From contig JAJDUH010000019.1 of assembly GCA_022826805.1 (NCBI GenBank), positions 1 through 64,000 of the forward strand: a DNA stretch of 64,000 nucleotides. The letters are read 5' to 3'. The position numbers and the translations under genes are program-made. Each line of letters starts with the position of its first letter. Positions within the stretch are counted from its first letter, which is position 1. Below are positions 14,017 to 64,000 of the stretch, piece by piece. The notes beneath the pieces were generated by a model. It was not told the origin of the DNA. It did not search any database and worked only from the letters and a program-made list of their open reading frames with translations. Origin of the DNA: Candidatus Poribacteria bacterium. GTDB taxonomy: Bacteria > Poribacteria > WGA-4E > WGA-3G.

Positions 14017-14329
14017 AACATTCACTCCTCTCTGAATTATTGGAAATCTGTTTATATTCACGACAATAATCTCACTTGTAAATAATTGAATCGTGGAGCT
14101 ATCTAATTTGCTTTTCGTTGTTTTAATCTCCCAATCAAAGTTCTATCTGGTGGGAAAGTATGTAGGGTTCTTTTGGACTACAAGCAAAAAGGGGTCGCTC
14201 TGTGTAATGTAAAGTATTACGAGTTCTATGAATTCATTAAAGACGTAATATCTATTATACCGAGAATAGGTTCTCATGTCAACTTGAATTATAGTGAATT
14301 CCATAATTAATTGGACACTTCTTTTGTAG

Positions 14330-14413
14330 CGCACGGGGAATGCCATCAGGCATTCATACCGTTGATTCCTGTTAGTTTGCGTCCCACTCCTACACGCCAA
14401 CGAACAGGAATCA
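14330..14413. repeat. REP-like hairpin module (solo copy)
   Basis: CGGGGAATGCCAT begins a 7-bp hairpin GAATGCC-ATCA-GGCATTC (14338-14355), followed by ATACCGTTGATT. An 11-bp inverted repeat TGATTCCTGTT (14363-14373) / AACAGGAATCA (14403-14413) comes next. The CGGGGAATGCCAT start and the TTCATACCGTTGATT end also bound the tandem array near 63000-63140, so both belong to one family. Confidence 0.55.
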
Positions 14414-14655
14414 GTGCCAAATGTTCACATATTTTCGGGCTTTACTATAATAACGATTTGTAGCCAATCAAAATATATAAACATTTCATGAATCGTGGAC
14501 TCGAAGCCCTTCAGTAGCGGCGTAAGAGGATTTTCGATTTCACCCATCCATCTGTATATTCTTAATATTTTGACGTGAGTTTGACTTAAGGGTTTATCAC
14601 GTAAGAGTAATAAAACAGAAACTGAATCCTATCATTATTTTTTTAAGCAAGTTCT

Positions 14656-60702: not shown

Positions 60703-61584
60703 TCACGACACTAAACTGTTGCTTCTTTGGTGCTCTGCTAATTTTTCAAGAAGCAAAAGTTGTTCAGCTCGTTCAATTGGTTCTTGGTATAAGCGTTGAG
60801 GTGTAAAATTCATTGCCAATGCCTCAAGCATCGGTTTTCTATTTTCCTCTTTCGCACCAACGTGGTAGAAATGCTCCTTGGTTAACACATGAAATTCTGA
60901 CCACAGCGTCTCAAGAAAAGTATTCTTCTTGTACTGATTGCTATGCCAAGTGGATAGAATAAATTTACACGGAGAGTGGCTCAGTATCTCAAATAGATGT
61001 CGTTCATTTTCTTCGTCCCAACTATCGAAATAATCGACGTGTTTCCCAACATAAGGCGGATCGCAGTAGACAAAATCCTTTTCAGAAATTTCTTTGAGTG
61101 TTTCGCTAAAATCTTGGCAAATGAATGACCAATTGGAGTGCCTTGACATAACATAAACGTAGTCAACTTGGTTCACAATCTTCGTAATATATGCTTTGGA
61201 AAACCGCTGCGGCTTGTGTCCAAAAGGTACGTTAAAATCTCCTTTGCGATTGAACCGAATCGTTCCATTGAAGCAGCATCGATTTAAAAAAAGAAAATCT
61301 AAAGGTTCATGCGTTCGATTAAATCGCTCTCGAACTTCATAATAATAATCTTGTCCACGTTTTGATAGTATTTCGCCGTGCTGTTCAAGGAAGTTTCTCA
61401 CTTTTATACCATTAATCTTCCCACTTGCGATGGCGTTATAGAAGTTAATCAAATGTGGGTTGGTATCTGCAAAAATAGCGTTGCGCGGTATAATATTGAA
61501 ACCAACAACCCCTGAACCCATAAAGGGTTCAATCCAATTGCCTTCAAAAGACCAGTCCACATTTCGCTTTGTCAAGGCACCCAC
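60703..61584 (-). pseudogene. D12-class DNA adenine methylase, N-terminus lost at the TnpB element end
   Basis: A Dam/D12-type N6-adenine methyltransferase. Motif I is EPFMGSGVVGFN, the characteristic segment FNGTIRFNRKGDFNVPFG follows, and the catalytic motif IV is DPPY in FVYCDPPYVGKHVDYF. A late block YHVGAKEENRKPMLEALAMNF is also typical. The usual N-terminal block with the GGK motif is missing. Upstream of LTKRNVDW the sequence is the right end of a TnpB element (to 61577), which supplies an in-frame GTG at 61584 but no Shine-Dalgarno sequence. About 20-40 residues seem lost, so activity is doubtful. No cognate restriction enzyme is seen. Confidence 0.75.
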
Positions 61585-61640
61585 AGCGTAAACGCTGGAG
61601 CTTGTGCTTCGTGGACAACTGCGATTTCTAAGAAATCGTC
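61577..61640 (-). mobile_element. Right end of the second TnpB element
   Basis: Read on the minus strand after the tnpB stop: CGATTTCTTAGAAATCG as a hairpin, then CAGCG-TTTA-CGCTG, then GTGGGTGC ending at 61577. It matches the right end at 77-162 in order and in the final octamer. An omega RNA would read from the tnpB 3' end into the methylase gene. Confidence 0.65.
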
Positions 61641-62809
61641 TTACACTGTCTCCACAACGGGATCGCAAGCAGCCCATAAGATGTTGATAGCAGCGTTTAT
61701 GTCTCGGTCGTGGTGTGAACCACATTTACGACATGTCCACTGCCTATCTGAAAGTGAAAGATTTTCGTTGGGATGTCCACAATCGGAACACAGCTTTGTG
61801 GTCGGCGTCCACTGCCCGACTTGACGGAACTCACGATTATGTTTCAAACTCTTGAACTTCAGAATCTCAACAAACTGGTAAAAGGCGAGGTCAGACACTT
61901 TTCTACCCCACAAGCGTTTCATGCCTTTAAGGTTCAGCGTCTCGGTAGCGATAAGGTCAAACCTTCGGCAAAGGTCGGTCGCCAGTTTGAAATGCCAATC
62001 GCGTCGTTGGTTAGCAACTTTGCGGTAAAGCCGTGCGAGTTCACGGACGGCACGCCAGTAGTTGCCAGACCCTTTGACTTTTCGGCTGATGGCTTTGTTG
62101 AGAGAGCGGAGTTGGTTCAAGGAAAGTTTAAAGAATTGTGGCGATTGTATTTTCTCACCGGTGTTGAGCGTGAGAAAAGCGTCTTTCATACCGGATTTGG
62201 TCTGGGAATAGACCAAATCCATTCCTTGTATTACATTGTCTGCCCCGACACTTTCACCCGTAGCAGGCAGGACTTCTTTACTGGCATCATCGGTTACGAC
62301 ATACAACCAATACCAACCAACACCATCGCGAAGGATTTGGAGATAGCGGACGTTTCCTTTCCAAGTGCGGTGCTGGTGAAAGGAAACCAACGCTTACTGA
62401 ATTTGAGACGGGACAGCGGTTCATTCCATTGTTTGAAGGAGAGACGCAGACGTCCATCGTCAAGTTTGTAGCCCGATTGAAACTTCGCAGAGCGGTAGCG
62501 TCCTTTGCGTTTGAACTTCGGCTTGCCTGTGCCTTTTATCTTCAAAAAGCGTTGCCAAGCGATGTGCAAGCGGATAATGACAGCGTCAAGTGTGTCGCGA
62601 GGGATCCATGCCCAGTGTTTCTTGGTCCGCTTCAGCAACTTCGTCAAGTGCGGTTGCAAGCGAAAACGTCCAGCATATTTACCATAAATGCGGTAATAGC
62701 GATTTTCCAACTTTAGAAAGTGGTTGTGGACATCGCAAAGGTCATCAAGCATATTGCCCAAGCGTTTGTTCTTGGAATGTTCGCGTATCTGATATGTGTA
62801 CGTTCGCAA
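61641..62809 (-). pseudogene. tnpB: tnpB of an IS200/IS605 element, broken by a frameshift and an insertion
   Basis: Residues from two frames make one TnpB. The N-terminal part (62294-62809) runs through FLKIKGTGKPKFKRKGRYRS to LKFSKRW; the frame then changes near 62370-62390 and continues as SFHQHRTWKGNVRYLQI. The C-terminal part has RuvC-II (TETLNLKGMKRLWGRK), a four-Cys zinc finger (CSDCG, CRKCG) and RuvC-III (HHDRDINAAINIL). In the RuvC-I motif GAD-F-GMKDA, fifteen codons (62193-62237) are inserted directly after the catalytic Asp. Both changes should abolish nuclease activity. The start is a TTG at 62809. Confidence 0.8.
62193..62220. repeat. Hairpin insertion inside tnpB RuvC-I
   Basis: GGATTTGGTCT-GGGAAT-AGACCAAATCC is a perfect 11-bp stem. 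It lies within the 45-base stretch absent from the other tnpB at the same position. Confidence 0.6.
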
Positions 62810-62814
62810 AGGTT

Positions 62815-62962
62815 TTACCAGTTACCAGTCTTTATCCCCTGTCAAGTAGGAAGGCAGACACGTTGCCTTGCGACAACGCTTGACATGTCTGCCAACTGGT
62901 AAGAATCGTATAACATTTTTGACGTTTTGTGTCAAGCGTTTTTTTCAAAGAAACGCCTTGGA
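62815..62962 (-). mobile_element. Probable left end of the second TnpB element
   Basis: Upstream of the tnpB start are two hairpin regions. One is GGCAGACA (62853-62860) / TGTCTGCC (62886-62893), extended by ACCAGTT / AACTGGT. The other is CAAGCGTTT / AAACGCCTTG (62933-62960), a nine-pair stem with one bulge. Subterminal hairpins of this kind are recognised by TnpA in IS200/IS605 elements; no tnpA is present here. The exact end is not resolved. Confidence 0.4.
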
Positions 62963-62996
62963 CTAACACACGAGGGCGGATTTTCCTCCCCAACCT

Positions 62997-63140
62997 CGGG
63001 GAATGCCATACGGGGAAGCCCATACGGGCTTCATACCCGGTGAAGTCCATACGGACTTCATACCCGGTGAAGCCTTTATAGGCTTCATACCGTTGATTTG
63101 ATTCTGATTCGCATTCATACCGTTGATTCAGGATGGGGTT
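62997..63140. repeat. Tandem array of GGTATGAAG hairpins (REP-like)
   Basis: Three hairpins follow each other with 4-base loops: GAAGCCC-ATAC-GGGCTTC, GAAGTCC-ATAC-GGACTTC and GAAGCCT-TTAT-AGGCTTC. Each is followed by ATACCCGGT or ATACCGTTGAT. The stem bases change in pairs between units, which keeps the pairing. The array begins with CGGGGAATGCCATAC and ends with degenerate ATACCGTTGATT copies. The solo module at 14330-14413 has the same boundaries. Confidence 0.65.
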
Positions 63141-63160
63141 TCCAATCCGTATTTTTTGAT

Positions 63161-64000
63161 GACGCTTATGTTTGATACACTTATATTTCAATATCTCAAC
63201 AAATTGGTAAAATGCAAGATCCGAGGCTTTTCTACCCCATAGGCGTTTCATCCCGTCAAGGTTCAAAGTTTCAATCGCAACAGTATCAAACCGATCGCAC
63301 AAGTCAGTCGCCAATTTCCAATGAAAGTTTTTACGCTGATCGGCAATTCTTCTGTAGAGTCGCGCAAGGCGTCTAACAGCACGCCACCAACCACCCGAAC
63401 CTTTTTGTTTACGGCTGAGTGCCTTGTTGAGAGTGCGAAGTTTATTCAAGGATTGCTTCAAAGGTTGCGGGTGTTGTATCTTCTCACCCGTGCTCAAAGT
63501 CAAGTAAGCGTCTTTCATACCGAAGTCTGCCCCAACGCTCTCACCTGTTGTCGGCAAAGGGTCGGTATCCGTGAAACTCGTCGTCATACAAAGCCAATAA
63601 TCACCGCAATTATCTCGCTTGATTGTAATGCGTCTTATATCGCCTTCCCACTCACGGTGTTTGAAAAAGGTATAAGCGACGCGATCCAGTTTCCATTTAC
63701 CACTCTCATATTTGCGAAAGGTGATAGAAATACGATCGTCTTTTATCTGCCAACCCGATTCTCCGGGATAGGTGATAGACCGAAACTTATGCGGACGTTT
63801 GATATGTGGTCTGTCACCTATCTTGTTGAAAAAAACGCTGATATGCTGCGTCAATGCGTTTCAATTCTTCTTGGATCGCTTGACTTGGCAACGCCTTCCA
63901 ATGGGGATGCGTAGTTTGCTTGAGTTCCGTCAAGTGTGCAGCCATAGCGTTATAGTTCGCATAGGGCAAGCCGTCTTTATAGCGTTGCCTTTGCCACTTA
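63161..64000 (-). pseudogene. tnpB: Second tnpB copy, 3' end lost and frameshifted, cut by the window edge
   Basis: From the right edge the minus strand reads KWQRQRYKDGLPYANYNAM to RIDAAYQRFF, the usual TnpB N-terminal helices. A run of seven A (63829-63835) then shifts the frame, and FNKIGDRPHIKRPHKFRS continues in another. RuvC-I is intact (SVGADFGMKDAYLTLS) and RuvC-II is present (AIETLNLDGMKRLWGRK). Homology to the other tnpB stops after YKCIKHKR at about 63162. The zinc finger and RuvC-III are gone, and the frame runs instead through the hairpin array. The product should be inactive. Confidence 0.8.

Follow-up and report, generated by a model that had tools for sequence, protein, structure and literature searches.

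A nested hairpin repeat in a tnpB leader of Candidatus Poribacteria and its dispersal in one family of the phylum

The window analyzed here is a 64,000-nucleotide stretch of DNA from a Candidatus Poribacteria bacterium (assembly GCA_022826805.1, contig JAJDUH010000019.1, positions 1 to 64,000). Three successive hairpins whose stems differ from one another in matched pairs of bases lie within positions 62997–63140, inside the reading frame of a truncated tnpB copy. The locus raises the question of what such an array is, how it came to lie in this place and why its stems change in pairs. The earlier note on this DNA had taken the pattern as a sign that the hairpin itself is preserved, had placed the array at the exact 3′ truncation point of the second tnpB and had pointed to tnpA/RAYT-type genes as a possible relation.

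The units described there, with 7-bp stems and the loops ATAC, ATAC, and TTAT, agreed base for base with the window sequence. On the plus strand they read GAAGCCC-ATAC-GGGCTTC, GAAGTCC-ATAC-GGACTTC, and GAAGCCT-TTAT-AGGCTTC, each with a 4-nt loop, and the array consists of three direct 27-nt copies. On the minus strand, to which the features were assigned, these are unit c (63011–63037; GAAGCCC-GTAT-GGGCTTC), unit b (63038–63064; GAAGTCC-GTAT-GGACTTC), and unit a (63065–63091; GAAGCCT-ATAA-AGGCTTC). As single-stranded DNA, the minus strand of 62970–63152 (183 nt) has a folding energy of −41.5 kcal/mol (z = −6.07), and none of 200 dinucleotide shuffles folded as well. An Rfam match to mir-76 at 63015–63086 scored 30.1 and 25.1 bits on the two strands, below the gathering threshold of 75 bits, and was rejected as a false match attributable to the tandem hairpins.

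Repeat E in the window

Sequence comparison with two paralogs of the same genome, C37 and C8, resolved the region into a nest of two steps within a hairpin of a tnpB leader. The minus-strand order is host arm CGGATTGGAAACCCCATCCT (63130–63149), a first copy of a repeat here called E (E1, 63129 to 62997), and host arm AGGTTGGGGAGGAAAATCCG (62977–62996); both arms were recognized from folding and paralog comparison, the left one also from the empty version in C37. E1 is a plain 35-nt E consisting of a 5′ part GAATCAACGGTATGAATGC (63111–63129) and a 3′ part TATGGCATTCCCCG (62997–63010), and its loop dinucleotide CT is replaced by E2 (63011–63110, minus strand), a 100-nt copy that carries the three hairpins and a head made of a repeated GAATCA-type hexamer (63092–63110). 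The leader hairpin of C37 is empty (...CCCTATCCT-TT-AGGGCAGGGAGG...) and has no E. In C8, E1 replaces the TT, and its two parts are joined directly, with CT intact in the loop. The window copy is the third stage of a series running from C37 (TT) through C8 (E1) to the window (E1 + E2). The array is thus read as a probable nested insertion whose empty and half-filled stages are kept in the same genome, which goes beyond the earlier note. In another species, E was found in the same leader hairpin at a slightly offset position (L074). The possibility that E is an omegaRNA or a native part of the TnpB element was rejected, because the C37 leader lacks it and many hosts other than tnpB carry it.

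The leader (62810–63165, minus strand, with its TCATCAAAA boundary near 63165) is common to the window and C8 and is partly found in C37. An intact TnpB of 375 aa lies just downstream of it in C8, which indicates that the leader segment belongs to the tnpB element and is presumably its left end. In the window, it belongs to tnpB copy 1 (61641–62809, minus strand), a relative of the C8 gene present as two overlapping ORFs (61641–62390 and 62294–62809), and butts against tnpB copy 2 near 63161. The ORF of copy 2 (62832–63854, minus strand) shows TnpB homology up to residues 229–232, corresponding to about 63161, and the remainder reads through the nest. This stop coincides with the left boundary of the tnpB-type leader that recurs in C8 and C37, whereas the nested repeat starts at 63129, ∼32 nt further on, so that the array does not lie exactly at the point where copy 2 loses its 3′ end. 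The truncation is explained by a tnpB-1-type element beside or inside tnpB copy 2, and not by the array. A Dam-family adenine methyltransferase ORF (60703–61725) runs with its first residues into the tail of tnpB copy 1, and its annotated start is doubtful on account of this overlap.

A second E of the window is a single 35-nt unit (14334–14368, minus strand) lying within a MITE-like repeat (14289–14458) with the ends TTATAGT.../...ACTATAA, where it takes the place of a TT in the central hairpin. The MITE-like repeat is present in many copies in the own genome; the paralogs L156, L157, L158, and L160 are empty and retain TT, while E is carried by the window copy, L154, and L155, the last of which is nested once more. 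The window copy and C48 are 98% identical as composites of host and E. In the genomes G022 and G012, the MITE-like repeat is absent at the corresponding place and only its flanks align. A very long nest of E hairpins within one MITE-like repeat was observed at L159 (own genome, C16:5880-6400). In MITE-like hairpins of G012, a different small repeat occupies the spot of E. A second small repeat family, TTTTGCGGCGTACTCGCCC..ATGCGATGTGCAT (L165 and L167 of G012; the "host B" sites), occurs in the same MITE hairpin and itself hosts E; given this second repeat, more than one nesting family is present.

Structure and distribution of repeat E

Side-by-side comparison of the copies showed that E consists of at least one (G/A)AATCA hexamer followed by ACGG, TA, a 7-bp hairpin with a short loop, and (A/C)CCG. 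The single-unit form is 35 nt long, and BLAST recovered this piece alone in unrelated surroundings (query positions 735–769 and 104–138), while in longer copies several hairpins follow one another at a 27-nt spacing, connected by GG(T/A) joints. The ends, (G/A)AATCA.../...CCG, are not inverted repeats and share only an inner CGG/CCG pair. The foot of the element is ACGG-TA/(A or C)CCG in pattern-listed and BLAST-found copies alike, and not a GTAG/CGTC tag.

The stems belong to a small set of types (GAATGCC, AAAGCCT, GAAGTGC, TCATGCC, GAAGCCT, CTATGCC, GAAGTCC, GAAGCCC, and others), for every one of which the exact complement is present. Among 206 units defined by their flanks alone in the genome and the phylum, all seven pairs were formed in 134, six in 16, and five in 5; the remaining 51 (0–4 pairs) are largely unrelated chance matches to the flank pattern. 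The 81 distinct arm pairs included 12 perfect ones, against a mean of 0.67 (maximum 4) in 1000 shuffles. The paired changes first seen in the array thus hold across the genome and the phylum, and it is the hairpin itself that is kept; the array-type hairpin recurs, and mismatched stems are the minority, so that neither of the two outcomes named in the earlier note as counter-evidence was observed. Owing to the small set of perfect types, the matched stem changes of the array are differences between established hairpin types. Ten loci were left out of the gene-context, paired-change, G053, and 17-family counts given here and below: L043, L065, L083, L086, L090, L100, L103, and L108 on account of their record titles, and L115 and L119 because they had no hairpin.

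In the own genome (5.09 Mb in 80 contigs, 94% complete), BLAST of the array gave 61 matches (E-value up to 10), and a genome-wide unit search of the kind that the earlier note had proposed confirmed its dispersal, with 39 + 41 matches to TATGAAGN10CTTC against 4 + 2 for the reversed control pattern. The 15-mer E core AATCAACGGTATGAA has 131 exact occurrences there and is found in 55 of 84 phylum genomes, namely, 36 of 38 in genus g1, 18 of 18 in g12, 0 of 2 in g11, and 1 of 26 among all others (one hit); the reversed 15-mer was found 0 times in every one of the 84 genomes. E is therefore confined to one family of Poribacteria apart from a single stray hit. Related genomes contain 0–257 cores each, with high counts in G082 (257), G057 (252), and G068 (248) and near-zero counts in G002, G003, G005, and G018; these counts are lower bounds as the 15-mer misses E variants. 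Candidatus Poribacteria records matched a 16-mer of the repeat, as did, by chance and without the hairpin, eight records titled as other organisms: of the 104 matches checked in 94 stretches, the hairpin arm was repeated in 80, and in 0 of the 8 other-organism records. Carriage by phages was rejected, since only 1 of the 10 viral contigs matching the 16-mer has the hairpin. That contig, L226 (IMGVR_UViG_2744054414_000001), carries a true E with its hairpin and is perhaps a prophage or host DNA.

Insertion sites and orientation

Flank analyses started from 143 unique sites. With short flanks, an uninserted version was found for 89 of 130 parsed sites, a loose count that includes versions interrupted by other parts of E. 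Longer flanks (97 of the 143 sites) gave an uninserted form for 27 of 56 host groups; the modal gap was 2 nt in 13 of these groups and 3 nt in six. After 25 sites from G022 and G053 were added and E-type flanks were dropped (89 of 168 sites kept), 17 non-E host families had an empty version, and the modal replaced length was 2 nt in 13 of them, 3 nt in three, and 4 nt in one. An exact 2-nt rule for all genomes is contradicted by G053, a member of the sister genus, in which the replaced length at 11 sites was 0 nt in four, 2 nt in one, and 3 nt in six. E insertion is not accompanied by target site duplication; 0–4 nt of the target are lost instead.

The flanks of 46 host groups (112 of the 143 sites) pair at a mean of −7.34 kcal/mol against −5.97 ± 0.27 kcal/mol for swapped flanks, the former value being reached in none of 500 permutations, and the targets of E are inverted repeats more often than expected by chance. 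Location of the target in a predicted hairpin loop was not significant in 17 families when E's own hairpins were excluded (p about 0.11–0.12) and was weak in 18 families when they were counted (p = 0.041; unpaired probability, p = 0.21). Thermodynamically, host families A, B, and D do not qualify as loop sites, and strict hairpin-loop targeting by predicted folding was set aside as only suggestive. On the E-defined strand, 9 of 13 families had two pyrimidines as the replaced dinucleotide (background 0.247, p = 9e-4), and in 10 of 13 the next two bases were GG or CC (background 0.10, p = 2e-8); these are post hoc observations.

Complete nests were forward relative to the host E in 13 cases and reverse in 0, at several positions in the loop. 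In host families A, B, and C, forward junctions numbered 29/27, 22/14, and 8/6, respectively; with the reverse pattern, left junctions numbered 3, 7, and 1, the examples inspected being unrelated sequence, and right junctions 0. The fixed orientation fits either strand-specific recognition or the spread of composites, and the spread of host plus E as one composite inflates the counts inside a single host family. In the complete genome G022 (28 sites), E strands were not sorted by chromosome arc; hence, a simple lagging-strand rule is not seen.

Possible routes of spread and comparison with known repeats

The comparisons show a dispersed 35-nt unit, or its multi-hairpin version, that occupies the tip or the middle of other inverted repeats, where it usually replaces 2 nt, and that nests in its own loop in one orientation. 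From them, we infer the direction (insertion and not excision), the single-strand state, and the enzyme. The array would have arisen through successive, nested insertions of a minute mobile hairpin repeat that multiplies within one Poribacteria family as structured single-stranded DNA, a reading to which we assign a probability of roughly 0.55. E would move as structured single-stranded DNA; a putative enzyme encoded elsewhere would recognize the E hairpin together with the 5′ hexamer tail, open a hairpin tip or a nearby YY/GG-CC junction on the same strand, and put E in place of the opened nucleotides. Under this proposal, each E brings a new loop, so that arrays would grow inward, Russian-doll fashion, and the paired stem changes would reflect a few perfect hairpin types that are kept because only a well-formed hairpin moves or serves as a target. 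More tentatively, and with odds that we place below even, E could be the smallest structure-targeting mobile DNA: a 35-nt single-stranded hairpin placed into hairpin tips by a putative enzyme, without reverse transcription and with a short target replacement. If that is true, self-similar nests would be expected, since every insertion of E creates a new target.

The constancy of site and orientation within a host family, which E nearly always keeps, would also be produced if E had been inserted only a few times and its present copies reflected the spread of composite host repeats (MITEs, tnpB elements, and palindromes) together with recombination or template switching between hairpins. The near-identity of the window MITE copy and C48 as composites and the absence of the MITE at the matching place in G022 and G012 are in agreement with such a history. 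We consider it rather unlikely, as the same E ends recur across 17 host families, several insertion positions occur within one kind of loop, and in the other species represented by L074 the leader hairpin carries E at a shifted position. Amplification by selection of regulatory hairpins (terminators, mRNA stabilizers, or processing sites), with no spread of their own, would account for the compensated stems and for the placement of 118 of 123 E clusters outside ORFs (18 of these beside a locus edge). The gene contexts (11 convergent, 19 divergent, and 70 tandem) do not favor convergent gene ends, related genomes differ in copy number between 0 and 257, and nests grow in depth without obvious use, all of which makes selection on regulatory hairpins very improbable.

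Single-stranded DNA hairpins are the substrate of the Y1 enzyme class, and movement of E as a REP/REPIN-type repeat by a RAYT (Y1 HUH transposase) could be supposed from the presence of Y1_Tnp in 53 of 57 family genomes (five genes in the own genome) and from a borderline correlation of copy number with Y1 count within the genus (rho 0.32, p = 0.051, n = 37). It appears improbable: across the 57 family genomes the number of E copies is not tied to that of Y1 genes (Spearman 0.19, p = 0.15), an E copy, as judged by the E and host motifs used, was found at 0 of the 5 own Y1 loci within ∼1.5 kb on each side (less at a contig end), no Y1 match was obtained in G066 despite its 132 E cores, and E is devoid of the GTAG/CGTC foot. 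Loss of target bases is likewise not known to be a Y1 pattern. Of the earlier interpretation, the preservation of the hairpin has thus held, while the array as cause or site of the tnpB2 truncation and the tie to tnpA/RAYT have not. An RNA intermediate has reportedly been proposed for the small dispersed repeats (SDRs) of cyanobacteria, and if E RNA were joined into loops of other RNA hairpins and then copied back into DNA by reverse transcription, hairpin targets and co-oriented nests would be the natural outcome. We regard this route as quite improbable here. RVT_1 gave no match in the own genome and is absent from 28 of 57 family genomes, including 12 of the 21 with at least 50 E, among them single-contig G069 (111 E) and G068 (248); E as a retroelement using an RVT_1 enzyme was accordingly rejected. 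Copy number does not track the RT count (rho −0.07, p 0.60), and tandem neighbors show no sense-strand bias (28 sense and 42 antisense), against any transcription-sense rule. As RVT_1 is missing, an RNA route through it would be unlikely, except if its action lay only in the past or a different enzyme takes its part; as Y1 is, in addition, neither linked nor clearly correlated, a DNA-level single-strand process is favored.

To our knowledge, the spread of gene-less repeats of 20–40 nt without classical ends has been an open question since their description in cyanobacteria and organelles. In the present case, all three stages of one nest (empty, single, and double) are found within a single genome, and 84 genomes with 0–257 copies, many without an RVT_1 match, make the RNA-intermediate idea testable and provide a basis for a gene-content screen for the enzyme.

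Among bacterial repeats, E resembles REP/REPIN sequences in being an extragenic palindrome of high copy number that forms mosaic arrays, and differs from them in the absence of the GTAG/CGTC tag, the lack of a linked Y1 gene at the five loci of the own genome, and the replacement of target bases (PMC3116915; PMC3733652). By its foot and the missing RAYT link, E is not a REPIN. With bacterial MITEs and the palindromic elements of Rickettsia, it shares small size, non-autonomy, dispersal, and folding, and it departs from them in its 35-nt length and the absence of terminal inverted repeats and target site duplication (PMC2229807; PMC10969869). Given these ends and this target, E cannot be counted among the MITEs. 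In Volvox organelle DNA, short palindromes are inserted into one another and build larger intergenic elements, similar to the nested, intergenic palindromic copies of E; they belong to eukaryotic organelles encoding a putative reverse transcriptase, and defined ends, replaced length, and an orientation rule are not given in the part of that account available to us (PMC2670323). Hairpin elements of sponge mtDNA show conserved stems, complementary substitutions between types, and tandem double hairpins, comparable to the compensated stems and tandem hairpins of E; they are mitochondrial, and the accessible part of the description does not mention nesting with empty sites (PMC2800124).

No published account of such repeats in Poribacteria was present among the literature matches listed, a coverage that left out most subscription journals. 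The nearest published kind is the cyanobacterial SDR. The SDRs of Nostoc and relatives (Elhai et al. 2008, Genome Res 18:1484) are reported to be very short hairpin repeats with compensated stems, nested in themselves and in minitransposons and confined to one clade. E agrees with that description in its length well below 100 nt, its many copies (131 exact cores), its compensated hairpin, its nesting both in itself and in minitransposon-like hosts, and its restriction to one clade. We know of no sequence common to E and the cyanobacterial SDRs. E stands apart from them by its occurrence in another phylum, its multi-hairpin arrays, the measured replacement of 2 nt (0–4) at the target, the in-genome series of stages, and its presence in genomes without RVT_1 matches.
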